A DNA stretch of 64,000 bases from Bacteriovoracales bacterium (GTDB lineage Bacteria; Bdellovibrionota; Bacteriovoracia; Bacteriovoracales; Bacteriovoracaceae): NCBI GenBank assembly GCA_028346125.1, contig JAOMEV010000007.1, positions 1 to 64,000 on the forward strand. The letters run 5' to 3'. The position numbers and the translations under genes were made by a program. The notes below the pieces were generated by a model. That model did no database searches. It was not told where the DNA came from and was given only the letters and a program-made list of their open reading frames with translations. Positions 56,402 through 64,000 of this stretch are shown piece by piece; position 1 is the stretch's first letter; each line of letters begins with the position of its first letter.

Positions 56402-57190
56402 ATGAAAAAATTACTGTTATTATTGCAGCTTACTACTCTTTTAGGTCTTGGTTCTTGTGGCTTTACAGGCTTATTTTTAAAAGAGAAAAATATTTATTTA
56501 AAGTCTTATAAAGACTATTCTTCCCAGGACTATATTCAACATTTAGGTTTTTTAGGAGAGCGCTATTTAAAAACTCCAAATGTAAAAATCTATAAATTGT
56601 CAGGTCGAAGTAAGAAATATTTAAGTAAAATATATAAAAAAATTATTGAAAATAATGAACTCATCTTTAAGCAGAAAGAAAGGCCCAAAATTTACATAAT
56701 AAAAGATGAGGTACCTTTTTATTTTTCATTACCAGGGGCCAACTTTTTTTTCTCATTAGGTCTAATCAAGAGTTATATGAAAAATGAGGGAGTCCTAATA
56801 GCTTGTTTTGCTTTTGAGATTTTAAAATCCCTTCGGAATATCTACCCAAAGAAAATACTATACCCTAAAGGTTTTGCAACCACAGGTGAAATGCTTGCTT
56901 TAACTCGACTTCCCTTTGGAATAAAAGTCAATTTGCATAAGTGGACATTTAATATTTTAAAAAGATCTAACTATGATCCATATAGTCACCTTATTTGGAT
57001 GCAGATACAAAATAAAAACCCATTGGATTTTTCTTTCCAACATGGTCATAATAACAAAGTGATTAGAGAAGAATATTTCTTGAAGAATTATATTTTGAAA
57101 GAAATAGGGCCATTAGAAAAAAAGCAATTGGTAGAAAAAAACTCGTCAAGAGAATTTTATAATTTTCTTGAAAGTTTGAAAAAGAGTTAG
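56402..57190 (+). CDS. Degenerate M48-like lipoprotein without zinc motif
   Basis: The 262-residue protein has lipobox GLGSC with acyl-cysteine at 19. Its core YIIKDEVPFYFSLPGANFFF near 98-117 matches the stretch that precedes the active site in M48 metalloproteases (usual NAFALPGG), followed by GLIKSYMKN and then FEILK at 138-142, exactly where HExxH should be. Both zinc histidines are absent (F138 and K142); only the glutamate E139 remains. The protein is therefore probably a non-catalytic homologue. It lies upstream of the AmgK-like gene with a 3-base gap. Confidence 0.7.
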   Translation: MKKLLLLLQLTTLLGLGSCGFTGLFLKEKNIYLKSYKDYSSQDYIQHLGFLGERYLKTPNVKIYKLSGRSKKYLSKIYKKIIENNELIFKQKERPKIYIIKDEVPFYFSLPGANFFFSLGLIKSYMKNEGVLIACFAFEILKSLRNIYPKKILYPKGFATTGEMLALTRLPFGIKVNLHKWTFNILKRSNYDPYSHLIWMQIQNKNPLDFSFQHGHNNKVIREEYFLKNYILKEIGPLEKKQLVEKNSSREFYNFLESLKKS

Positions 57191-60144: not shown

Positions 60145-60591
60145 ATGATGGTTAGGGTGATCGTACTTTTAATTTTTTCACAGCTATTAACTTCGTGTTT
60201 TGTTTCTAAGGATGGACCTGAGGGAACTTTGAAAGGATTTATAGCACGCCAATTTTCAGGTAATGTGAGTAAAGGTGAAATTTTAGGAGATACTACAGGT
60301 GCGCTTTATAATGAATATAACAATATGAGTGATGAGCTATTTGATAAGATCTATAAAAGTAATAAATACAAAAAAGGAAAAATAAATATTCACTTTAAAA
60401 AGTGCAATGAGAATAAATGCTCCATTACATATTCGATAAACTATAATATGAGAATAAAGAAAGGTGCAGGTACAGAAGTCGAAATAAAAAAAATGGCGAC
60501 ATTACTAAAGAATGAAAAAGATATTTGGAAAATTTCAAATATTATGAATATAAAGACATATTATGAACCATCGGAAATTATTGTAAAATAG
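60145..60591 (+). CDS. Unrecognised small lipoprotein, 148 residues
   Basis: A lipoprotein with lipobox LLTSC (acyl-cysteine near 18). The mature part includes GPEGTLKGFIARQFSG, a pattern like DUF4878-type lipoproteins with an NTF2-like fold, then a Lys-rich mixed segment with two further cysteines (FKKCNENKC) that may form a disulfide. Function unknown. It starts 7 bases after the PilZ-like gene, so is likely co-transcribed. Confidence 0.7.
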   Translation: MMVRVIVLLIFSQLLTSCFVSKDGPEGTLKGFIARQFSGNVSKGEILGDTTGALYNEYNNMSDELFDKIYKSNKYKKGKINIHFKKCNENKCSITYSINYNMRIKKGAGTEVEIKKMATLLKNEKDIWKISNIMNIKTYYEPSEIIVK

Positions 60592-60619
60592 ACATTTAAT
60601 GTCTTCTTAGGATTAAAAT

Positions 60620-61087
60620 TTGGATATGCCAATACAACCTAAATCAGAAGAAAAATTTTTCAACAAACTTATGGATGAGACGTTTAAAAGTTTAGGAGAA
60701 GACTTTAAAGATGGCCATGATTTAACGTTAAAAACCTCTATTGAAGAGGTACATCACAAATTGGAAGGCGAAGGAGTCCCTTGTTTTCCTCTCGCATTTT
60801 TAAAGGAGACTTTGTGCTTCAGAGTAGCGATGGATGAAAAAATTCTAGATTTTCCACACAACTGGTCTATCTTTCAAAATCTTTTTGAGTCAATGAGCAG
60901 TAACCAAGATTACATGTGCTGGATTGATCGGGAAGATGACAATGATTTTATTTTAAAAGTTTTGGGCGAATGGGTTGGTGAAAACTTAGAGGCCGTGATT
61001 TTGCTTTCGGGTCCTAGTCCACTTTTAGCCATTATTCCAAAAAGCCGAAGATCTGACTTCAGCATGTTGAAAAAAAACTTCTTTTAA
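60620..61087 (+). CDS. Unrecognised cytoplasmic protein, 155 residues
   Basis: No signal peptide or membrane segment is visible, and I do not recognise the family. The TTG at 60620 has AGGA seven bases upstream; the ATG at 60626 is the alternative. The sequence is acidic, mixed helix and strand, with HHKLEGEGVPCFPLAF near 45 and the C-terminal PLLAIIPKSRRSDFS. It is convergent with the endonuclease-like gene. Confidence 0.7.
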   Translation: MDMPIQPKSEEKFFNKLMDETFKSLGEDFKDGHDLTLKTSIEEVHHKLEGEGVPCFPLAFLKETLCFRVAMDEKILDFPHNWSIFQNLFESMSSNQDYMCWIDREDDNDFILKVLGEWVGENLEAVILLSGPSPLLAIIPKSRRSDFSMLKKNFF

Positions 61088-61093
61088 GTCTTT

Positions 61094-61930
61094 TCAAAGA
61101 GAAAGGTAGTAATCTTTTAACATTTTTGCGTCTACTTCTAGATTTGGGCTATTACAAATAATATAGCCTTTACAATCGAAGTCTTTGAGAGCGCGAATAA
61201 GTTCCTTCCAGTTGAAGCTAGAGCTTTCAAGGTTAAGGTGCTTGAGATCTCCCTTAGAGTTAGAGCTAATTCCCGAGATGTGTATGTGCATATTGTCTAG
61301 ACATATACGTCCAAGCTCATTTTTAAGGTCTGTTAGAACACCTGTGAACTCTTCGTAGGAGTTATATTTGCCTGTTCTGGCGTAGAGGTGTGAAAAGTCC
61401 ATACAAGGGGAGCATGAATTTACTGATTTTGTAAGGCTAATGAGCTCTTGAAGAGATCCAAATTGACTGGTTTTACCAGTTAGTTCGGGCCTTAATTCAA
61501 TTTCTATATCAAGCCTTCCGAGTCTTTCTTCAATGACATTAAGACTTTTTTCGACGAGGTCAAAGACATCATAGGGAGAGTCTTTCATATAAAAAGCGGC
61601 GTGAAAGGTCATTGATTCTGCCCCACACAGGTCAGAAATTTTCGCTGTTTGAATAATTCTTTCAACAGAAGAATCAATTTTATCTTGTTCTCGGGCATTG
61701 AGATTAATGTAATAAGGACCATGCGAAGTTAGAGGGACTCCGAGCTCAAATGAGGCTCTACGCAAGCTAGAGGACACTTCCTCCTTCATTCTAACCCCAT
61801 GGGCAAACTCGAGCTGCATGCAATCGAGGTCCAGAGCGCGTATTTGCTTTACGCCCTCTATGGGATTGTTTTTTCTAGGTGTTGAATTGGGAACACCGGC
61901 AGTGCCAAAAAGTATTCTATCGAAGTTCAT
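61094..61930 (-). CDS. Endonuclease IV-like TIM-barrel protein
   Basis: The 278-residue protein has the xylose isomerase/endonuclease IV barrel. Metal-ligand motifs are HGPYYINL near 70, FHAAFYM near 109, ELRPELTGKTSQFGSLQEL near 144, the DFSHLYAR near 178 and HIHISG near 217. Short Nfo-like proteins of this kind are probable AP endonucleases (deoxyribonuclease IV). Strictly, some are sugar isomerases; the H, E, D, H ligands favour a metal enzyme. ATG at 61930. Confidence 0.75.
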   Translation of the reverse strand: MNFDRILFGTAGVPNSTPRKNNPIEGVKQIRALDLDCMQLEFAHGVRMKEEVSSSLRRASFELGVPLTSHGPYYINLNAREQDKIDSSVERIIQTAKISDLCGAESMTFHAAFYMKDSPYDVFDLVEKSLNVIEERLGRLDIEIELRPELTGKTSQFGSLQELISLTKSVNSCSPCMDFSHLYARTGKYNSYEEFTGVLTDLKNELGRICLDNMHIHISGISSNSKGDLKHLNLESSSFNWKELIRALKDFDCKGYIICNSPNLEVDAKMLKDYYLSL

Positions 61931-62059
61931 AAGATCACGCCCTTCTCGCTACAATAATTAAAAATCAATCAGTCTGAATGCGTTATAGCTCTTTTACTCT
62001 ATATTGTCTATAATTTCGTAACTAAAGTGTAATAAAGTAATGTTTTGTGGTGCATTCAT

Positions 62060-62908
62060 ATGAGACTCATTCAAATGTTTTCAGTTGTGTTAGTTCTTGG
62101 CTTTGTTTCTTTTTACCCAATTTCGTTGGGCTTTTTACTCTTTCCAAGCATGGTTTTTGGAATAAGCTTTATTCTTATTGGCTTTTTAGTCTCTGGAATA
62201 ATGTTTTTTGGTGATAAAGTTTTACTTTCTTTAATGCATGCCAGGCCTTTGCCTAAAGGCCACTACTTAGAAGATGTGTCGGATCATTATTCTTTTTTGT
62301 TCCAACAAGAGAATAAAAAGATTTATATCGTTGATGGATTTGATAACTGTTTTTTATTTAGGTCATTATTTGGAAAGACCACTTTGGTTTTTGAAAGTGC
62401 CTTATTGGAAAAACTATCTCCTAGGGAAATGGAATCTATCATTTTTCTTTCTTGTGTAAAATCCAAAGGGTCTAAACTGTTTTTGAGCTTCTCATTTCAA
62501 ATGCTTAAAGGTTTATTCTACTTTCCGACCTTTTTTCTCCCAAAGAAGTCTCAGGCCTTTAGGTCCCTTAATGTAATAATCTCCTTCTTTTTGTTTCCTT
62601 TAAGGCTAGTCGAAGTTTTTGCTTTTAAAAGAGGGCCACTTCTTTTAGATGAAGATTTTGAGGTATTCAACAAGATTTATTTAGGAAAAGAGCTAAGTTC
62701 AGCTTATTTTAAAATTGAACACTTATATTCTCAAAATATTAAAAATAAAGATGGAATCTTTGAAAGAGTTATAGAGGGACTTGCTATATTGGAGGACAAT
62801 AGGTACGATGCGTTGCGTACCGTTTTGGGTCCAAGGTTACTTTCCAAAGCAAGGTTTAAGGCCTTAATTCATGAAAAATTTAGCCAAAAATGTGACAAAG
62901 TTATTTAA
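62060..62908 (+). CDS. Degenerate HtpX-like M48 protein without HExxH
   Basis: From ATG 62060 (TTG 62045 possible) the protein has 282 residues, with membrane helices at about 6-50 and near 140-170. The block LLEKLSPREMESIIFLSCVK at 115-134 aligns with the HtpX pattern LLExLSxxELExVLAHELxH, but the five zinc-site residues are LSCVK (130-134). Both histidines and the glutamate are lost. It looks like a pseudo-protease. The next gene overlaps by 38 bases. Confidence 0.65.
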   Translation: MRLIQMFSVVLVLGFVSFYPISLGFLLFPSMVFGISFILIGFLVSGIMFFGDKVLLSLMHARPLPKGHYLEDVSDHYSFLFQQENKKIYIVDGFDNCFLFRSLFGKTTLVFESALLEKLSPREMESIIFLSCVKSKGSKLFLSFSFQMLKGLFYFPTFFLPKKSQAFRSLNVIISFFLFPLRLVEVFAFKRGPLLLDEDFEVFNKIYLGKELSSAYFKIEHLYSQNIKNKDGIFERVIEGLAILEDNRYDALRTVLGPRLLSKARFKALIHEKFSQKCDKVI

Positions 62909-64000
62909 TCTTAAGGCCTTTGAGACAACCTCACTTTATCCGTTTCTTTTCACTCTTCTTTTTGTTTTTCTGACATTCCAATACCCCTTTAATTCCTTAG
63001 AATCCATTTTTTACGACTTTAGAGTTAAATATGATTTTGGTGTTTTAAATGAAAAAAACCTCGTTATTGTTACCATGGATGAGGAAAGTGATGAATTTTT
63101 AGGTGAGCAATACCCTTACACCTATGCTAGTCACCATAGACTTTTTACAAAGTTACTGCAAAACCGTCCTCAGATAATAAATTACTTTGTTAATCCTTTG
63201 GGGCCAGAATCATCTCTTGACCAAAAAAACTTTATAAAGTTCAAAGACTCGATTAATCAATTTAAATCAGCCGGGGGGGAGTTCCGCTTTGGTGTAAAAA
63301 TGGATGTTTGGGGAGAGCAGCACCCACCAATTGGGCTCAAAGAACTTGGGCATTCCTTAGCAATTTTAAATAAAGACGACTTTGAGTTTTCTAAAGACAA
63401 AGTTGTGAGAAGGGCCGTTTTAAATATTTCTGGGGATGATACTCTTCACTTGTGGACTGCAAATAAATACAGGGAATTTTTAGGAAAGCAAAAAATAGAC
63501 TCATATAATTTACCAGGGGCTTTCTACCAGAGAGGTTTAGATGCTACAGTAGCTTCTTTTAGATATCCTTCATCACCTTTGGAAAATGATGGAAAAGTCA
63601 CTAAAATACCATTTCATAAAGTTGTTGTAGGAAATTTTCCAAAAGGGTTTTTTAAAGATAAATTGGTCCTTGTTGGGCCAAGTTATATTTCAAACTCTTC
63701 GGATTACTCTTTATCTCCATTTAATCGAGAGGACCAAAAAGCACCTAATATTTTTATTCATGGACTCATCATGCAGTCTTTGATTCAAAAGAAAACAGTT
63801 GTACCTATTACAAAAACTTTTACTTACATATTGTCCTTTCTCATAGTTTTAGTTTTATCTATAGTCATTAATAAGGTTAAGCCAACAAACGGCCTCATTA
63901 TTACTATTTCTCTAATGCTGGGTTTGTTAGTTTTTTCATATCTTATTTTTTCTCTTTTTGGTTATTGGCTTTATACAACACACCTTATTCTGGCCATTTT
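62871..64000 (+). CDS. CHASE2-domain protein, C-terminal part cut by window edge
   Basis: From ATG 62871 an uninterrupted frame of 376 codons reaches the window edge. After a membrane anchor (FLFTLLFVFLTFQ region), a CHASE2 extracellular sensor domain follows: ESIFYDFRVKYDF, VIVTMDEES, LVLVGPSYISNSSDYSLSPF and IHGLIMQSLI. Then come two further membrane helices. CHASE2 proteins usually end in adenylate/guanylate cyclase, kinase or diguanylate cyclase domains; the end is outside the window, so the output is unknown. Confidence 0.8.
   Translation, partial: MKNLAKNVTKLFNLKAFETTSLYPFLFTLLFVFLTFQYPFNSLESIFYDFRVKYDFGVLNEKNLVIVTMDEESDEFLGEQYPYTYASHHRLFTKLLQNRPQIINYFVNPLGPESSLDQKNFIKFKDSINQFKSAGGEFRFGVKMDVWGEQHPPIGLKELGHSLAILNKDDFEFSKDKVVRRAVLNISGDDTLHLWTANKYREFLGKQKIDSYNLPGAFYQRGLDATVASFRYPSSPLENDGKVTKIPFHKVVVGNFPKGFFKDKLVLVGPSYISNSSDYSLSPFNREDQKAPNIFIHGLIMQSLIQKKTVVPITKTFTYILSFLIVLVLSIVINKVKPTNGLIITISLMLGLLVFSYLIFSLFGYWLYTTHLILAI

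Follow-up and report, generated by a model that had tools for sequence, protein, structure and literature searches.

What does a protein with the fold of the membrane protease HtpX do once its zinc site is gone, and why is its gene placed directly before that of a sensor histidine kinase? The gene in question is located on the forward strand at positions 62060-62908 of the window, by which we mean the whole stretch of DNA analysed (64,000 nucleotides; positions 1 to 64,000 of contig JAOMEV010000007.1 from a Bacteriovoracales bacterium). It starts with ATG and encodes, in an uninterrupted frame, a membrane protein of 282 amino acids, here called pseudo-HtpX, the translation of which contains the peptide LLEKLSPREMESIIFLSCVK quoted in the preliminary description. 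A search against PDB sequences yielded just one, unrelated match (E = 0.26), and there were no matches in Pfam and NCBIfam even at E = 10, so that homology to HtpX had to be demonstrated by other routes.

The search with the single sequence covered 39 relatives and gave matches in 12 genomes from its own taxonomic family, the source genome among them, as well as genuine HExxH-bearing HtpX proteins of two other families (E = 7e-6 and 1e-3). With a profile built from 12 members, these HExxH-bearing proteins scored at E ~1e-25, and an HH-align comparison with the HtpX profile gave a probability of 97% over 263 columns, the E-value of this one-against-one test being rough. The AlphaFold2 model, inferred from an alignment of 31 sequences (pLDDT 81, pTM 0.74), consists of two long N-terminal helices, a small beta sheet, the site helix (residues 121-135) and two further long helices. 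The first two are hydrophobic (residues 2-27 and 32-58; 62063-62233, forward strand) and the last two of membrane type (residues 139-159 and 165-189; 62474-62626, forward strand), such that two predicted membrane helices precede and two follow the helix of the dead site, as in HtpX and the M48 fold. The top PDB matches of the model in Foldseek were M48 and M56 proteases, with ZMPSTE24 (E = 5.5e-4), Ste24p, BlaR1, HtpX (3cqb; TM 0.70 on the target, 2.2 Å) and BepA as the best.

Taken singly, several of these results are modest or approximate, yet together the direct match, the family profiles, the profile-profile alignment and the predicted structure leave no serious alternative to descent from HtpX. 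The protein thus belongs to HtpX/M48B by common descent in sequence, although not by a match above the cut-off to a curated model. Weak matches to PF01435 elsewhere in its own genome were considered as M48 proteins and rejected, being other HExxH proteins (HELGH or HEIGH, in a matrixin-like context).

The preliminary description had proposed an HtpX homologue in which the zinc site is replaced, and the alignments bear this out. The sequence LSCVK (residues 130-134; 62447-62461, forward strand), which is located within the site helix, aligns column for column with the HEMSH of genuine HtpX, where the motif reads HEMSH or HELSH. The third zinc ligand, the Glu of ExxxD (E of SRSREF.AD), is not conserved in pseudo-HtpX, in a part of the alignment that is gappy. 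Nor has a new catalytic site become apparent. A cryptic enzyme with a zinc-free active site, hydrolase or other, could draw on the site helix and its surrounding elements, which are retained in the model. The wide alignment contained no new invariant polar triad, however, and its near-invariant columns (M1, D52, A61 and P180) look structural, for which reason we regard such an enzyme as highly improbable.

Profile matches were found in 103 of the 129 Bacteriovoracaceae genomes, a number that includes a handful of weakest matches to other M48 proteins. The matching contigs are from Bacteriovoracaceae, Halobacteriovoraceae, Bacteriovorax and Halobacteriovorax, and the Bacteriovorax/Halobacteriovorax group comprises relatives of known predators. 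HExxH was absent from the site in all 67 aligned orthologues; a stray HEIEH near the end of one of them (L094) lies away from the aligned position. It was also absent from the upstream reading frames recovered from Bacteriovoracaceae loci in genome contigs that were located through the kinase rather than through pseudo-HtpX.

Relatives from the same genus, with 44-45% sequence identity, likewise lack the motif. Between two congeners the dN/dS ratio of pseudo-HtpX was 0.056; the kinase had a ratio of 0.028, and the other neighbouring genes were in the range 0.006-0.136. Pseudo-HtpX is thus, as estimated from this pair, under purifying selection of a strength within the range of its neighbours. 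A sequencing error or a pseudogene in the source genome was considered and ruled out by the same-genus orthologues and the dN/dS ratio. An intact HExxH in the same position of a close relative, which would have pointed to error or local decay, was not encountered; HtpX with HExxH in that position is known only from a distant family (f29), indicating ancient descent rather than recent decay. Judged from these comparisons, the zinc site was lost long ago, and the gene has nonetheless been retained under selection. Loss of catalytic residues common to the orthologues, together with purifying selection, is the pattern expected of a pseudoprotease, a non-catalytic homologue that is maintained.

The neighbourhood of the gene is also conserved in its broad arrangement. 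In the Bacteriovoracaceae the order is a divergent nfo-like gene (AP_endonuc_2, xylose-isomerase-like TIM barrel; 61094-61930, reverse strand), pseudo-HtpX, a CHASE2-HisKA-HATPase sensor histidine kinase, an NtrC-type sigma-54 regulator, LspA and usually Lgt. In the contig studied here, the kinase (633 amino acids, forward strand) occupies 62871-64000 in the window and continues to contig position 64772, its start overlapping the end of pseudo-HtpX by 38 nucleotides, and is followed by the regulator with its GAFTGA motif (about 64765-66303), then LspA and Lgt. The kinase was identified in 124 of the 129 genomes. Among 72 loci laid out, 67 had a reading frame of 155-334 amino acids directly before the kinase, and nearly all had the divergent nfo-like gene before that frame. 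The distance from the upstream frame to the kinase was mostly tens of nucleotides or an overlap, -3 nucleotides being the commonest value in the 67 loci. The iterated pseudo-HtpX profile matched 62 of the 67 frames; several short ones (155-215 amino acids) were unmatched. Such linkage to kinase and regulator genes is that expected of an accessory component of a two-component system. At 60145-61087, on the forward strand, are a 148-amino-acid small lipoprotein-like frame and a 155-amino-acid frame with no Pfam match, and the pair is retained in the same block of most Bacteriovoracaceae loci laid out.

One genus (g49, four genomes) has the nfo-like gene, the kinase and the regulator, while the pseudo-HtpX gene is absent. 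In its four loci (L137, L138, L140 and L141) about 380 nucleotides separate the nfo-like gene from the kinase, an interval that apparently contains a short Cys-rich reading frame with the orientation of the nfo-like gene.

The intergenic region that separates pseudo-HtpX from the divergent nfo-like gene contains a promoter-like element, TTATAGC-N14-TTGTCTATAAT (61983-62014, forward strand), which could be an operator or a pair of -10 elements placed back to back. In the five genomes tested, the exact element occurred once per genome and always at the pseudo-HtpX locus, whereas looser matches were no commoner than in a reversed-pattern control. An inverted-repeat form, TTATAG...CTATAAT, was present in 29 of 65 orthologous intergenic regions as compared to 0.065 expected from letter shuffles, the 29 including close relatives and thus not being independent. 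The sequence TGTAATA is located about 12 nucleotides after the element.

Pseudo-HtpX evolves rapidly, with about 15-25% identity between genera as compared to about 50% for the sensor region of the kinase. This divergence, the short versions unmatched by the profile, the loss in one genus and the overlapping frames are all features expected of a decaying HtpX remnant, the frame of which is kept mainly for translational coupling of the kinase. Such a remnant would not account for the low dN/dS ratio, for the stop-free, full-length frames in most genera or for the conservation of fold-level features and of the upstream element, and we consider decay improbable.

To which HtpX does the gene trace back? 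The phylum holds two types, one similar to that of Escherichia coli and one characterized by the motif SDKIVLxxYRA. The E. coli-like HtpX of the Bacteriovoracaceae has an HExxH motif and scored at most 19 bits with the pseudo-HtpX profile, as compared to 60-87 bits in most cases for the SDKIVLxxYRA type, of which HExxH-bearing members are found in eight families (f2, f4, f5, f10, f19, f21, f23 and f29). On these scores we rejected descent from the active E. coli-type HtpX that the same genomes encode. The same distance bears on a role as inhibitory partner, in which pseudo-HtpX would form mixed oligomers with active HtpX and limit its activity. Most of the same genomes do encode an HExxH-bearing HtpX of the E. 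coli type with which it might associate, but this kinship is distant and the active gene is unlinked to pseudo-HtpX, making inhibition very unlikely.

In family f29 the HExxH-bearing HtpX is divergent from an nfo-like gene that shares 47-52% identity with its counterpart in the window. Since pseudo-HtpX too adjoins the nfo-like gene, the gene order suggests that it is the positional counterpart of the f29 protein, with the downstream DUF1844 and DegP genes swapped for the kinase operon. HExxH-bearing HtpX of this type has DUF1844-DegP neighbours, in contrast to the kinase, regulator, LspA and Lgt in the Bacteriovoracaceae. A special link to f29 was neither confirmed nor rejected by a tree test (AU p = 0.105). 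In another family (f24) the kinase-regulator pair is already located before LspA and Lgt. It is nearly certain, in our assessment, that pseudo-HtpX is an ancient pseudoprotease, kept by selection, that descends from the second HtpX type (SDKIVLxxYRA) and has become fixed as the first gene of the CHASE2 kinase/NtrC-type operon of the Bacteriovoracaceae.

A second group of dead HtpX proteins of the same type was identified in families f6, f11, f14-16, f18 and f20, which are probably Bdellovibrio-like; HExxH was absent in all 26 aligned sequences. In the loci laid out, these genes precede DUF1844 and a DegP-like protease (a MoxR/HtpX-DUF1844-DegP setting). The group shares with pseudo-HtpX the type and the lost zinc site, but is less degraded: three tested members matched the NCBIfam HtpX model at E = 1e-40 to 1e-48, and several still matched Pfam M48. 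The variants at the site include HQLCH, YQxxS/T, HEVAK and FEMLK, and in genus g65, HQ(L/I)CH, the catalytic Glu alone is changed within the motif. The homologues L249-L255, from genera of family f6, mostly g65, have HQ(L/I/V)CH, with Glu replaced by Gln and both zinc His kept; these homologues possibly are zinc-binding pseudoproteases, to judge from the motif. In the tree, the pseudo-HtpX sequences of the Bacteriovoracaceae formed one clade (100/99), whereas the second group was interleaved with an HExxH-bearing member. A single clade for both groups was not rejected (AU p = 0.34).

The DUF1844-DegP neighbours of same-type, HExxH-bearing HtpX point to a quality-control setting, in which pseudo-HtpX might serve, with no part in signalling, as a substrate adaptor or holdase for membrane proteins that passes misfolded proteins to FtsH or E. 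coli-type HtpX, or shields them. Active M48 proteins coexist with it in nearly all genomes, and there is a parallel in the rhomboid family, members of which are reported to have adaptor or client-binding roles (EMBO J 2020, PMC7231995; Cell Rep 2021, PMC8641752). The fixed linkage to the kinase is left unexplained by an adaptor or holdase, however, and the DUF1844-DegP partners do not adjoin pseudo-HtpX in the Bacteriovoracaceae. We regard this role as rather unlikely, if plausible.

The preliminary description suggested that this lineage employs the fold non-catalytically. That is valid for one line of HtpX, which has also lost its site in a further group of families, but not for M48 proteins at large. 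As many as 128 of the 129 Bacteriovoracaceae genomes encode M48 proteins above the Pfam cut-off, indicating that the lineage has not abandoned M48 catalysis; the best ones inspected, of E. coli-type HtpX, Ste24p and BepA types, have intact HExxH motifs. No M48 protein above the cut-off was found in the source genome, an assembly that is 68% complete, while one of its two congeners has 5 and the other 2. The second pseudo-M48 protein proposed nearby is likewise the product of a genuine, conserved gene. This lipoprotein (56402-57190, forward strand), 5 kb from pseudo-HtpX, has FEILK at the position of HExxH, and its relatives, with 37-60% identity and an invariant lipobox Cys, all read xExxx, such that the Glu is invariant and both zinc His are lost. 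The gene is located between those for a LysM protein and an AmgK/MurU-like pair (phosphotransferase/nucleotidyltransferase, downstream), an order conserved across the family. The best PDB matches of its profile were BepA and another M48 protein at E = 0.2-0.3 only, and on these weak matches it is probably a BepA-type M48-like protein.

Taken from its sequence and setting, pseudo-HtpX itself is probably a regulatory part rather than an enzyme. We give about an even chance to its being a membrane-embedded subunit that serves the kinase system as regulator or adaptor, with a cleft that binds without cutting. As such it would stay in the inner membrane in the layout of HtpX, and the former substrate cleft would still bind segments of membrane proteins or peptides. 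Made together with the kinase, it would contact the kinase as an accessory subunit and tune it in response to envelope conditions. The sigma-54 regulator would then adjust genes for the envelope and for lipoproteins, among them perhaps the LspA and Lgt genes of this block. Several observations argue against an accessory subunit. The kinase-regulator pair is found through the phylum with no pseudo-HtpX upstream and is kept in the genus that has lost the gene, which indicates that the kinase can function alone. Furthermore, pseudo-HtpX diverges fast between genera, and the operon may group genes that are merely co-regulated.

More speculatively, the whole HtpX line in the predators of this phylum might have turned from protease to regulator, serving in the Bacteriovoracaceae as sensing subunit of a CHASE2 kinase/sigma-54 envelope response and in Bdellovibrio-like bacteria as a dead protein beside DegP, in both cases keeping watch over the envelope during attack or growth in prey; we put this forward tentatively, as a minority possibility. 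The genomes span active HtpX, forms with a change of the Glu only (HQxxH) and site-less forms joined to a sensor kinase, a series in which a scaffold role besides cutting is directly testable. The most diverged of these proteins escape automatic annotation entirely, and the less altered ones may be labelled proteases by it.

Eukaryotic membrane pseudoproteases have been studied extensively, but no bacterial pseudo-HtpX was found in the open-access literature searched. Rhomboid pseudoproteases (iRhoms and derlins) also have a non-catalytic membrane protease scaffold with regulatory or client-binding roles, but are eukaryotic and of an unrelated fold, the likeness being one of working principle only. 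HtpX itself (M48B; NF002826/PRK03001 type; PF01435) shares with pseudo-HtpX its descent, its length, the strands before the site helix and the two helices on each side, and differs in having HExxH and the third ligand, both absent in pseudo-HtpX, which the Pfam and NCBIfam models do not recognise. BlaR1, a peptidase M56 sensor among the Foldseek matches, retains its zinc site, has a sensor domain of its own and lacks a partner histidine kinase, yet offers the likeness of a gluzincin membrane fold used for signalling.
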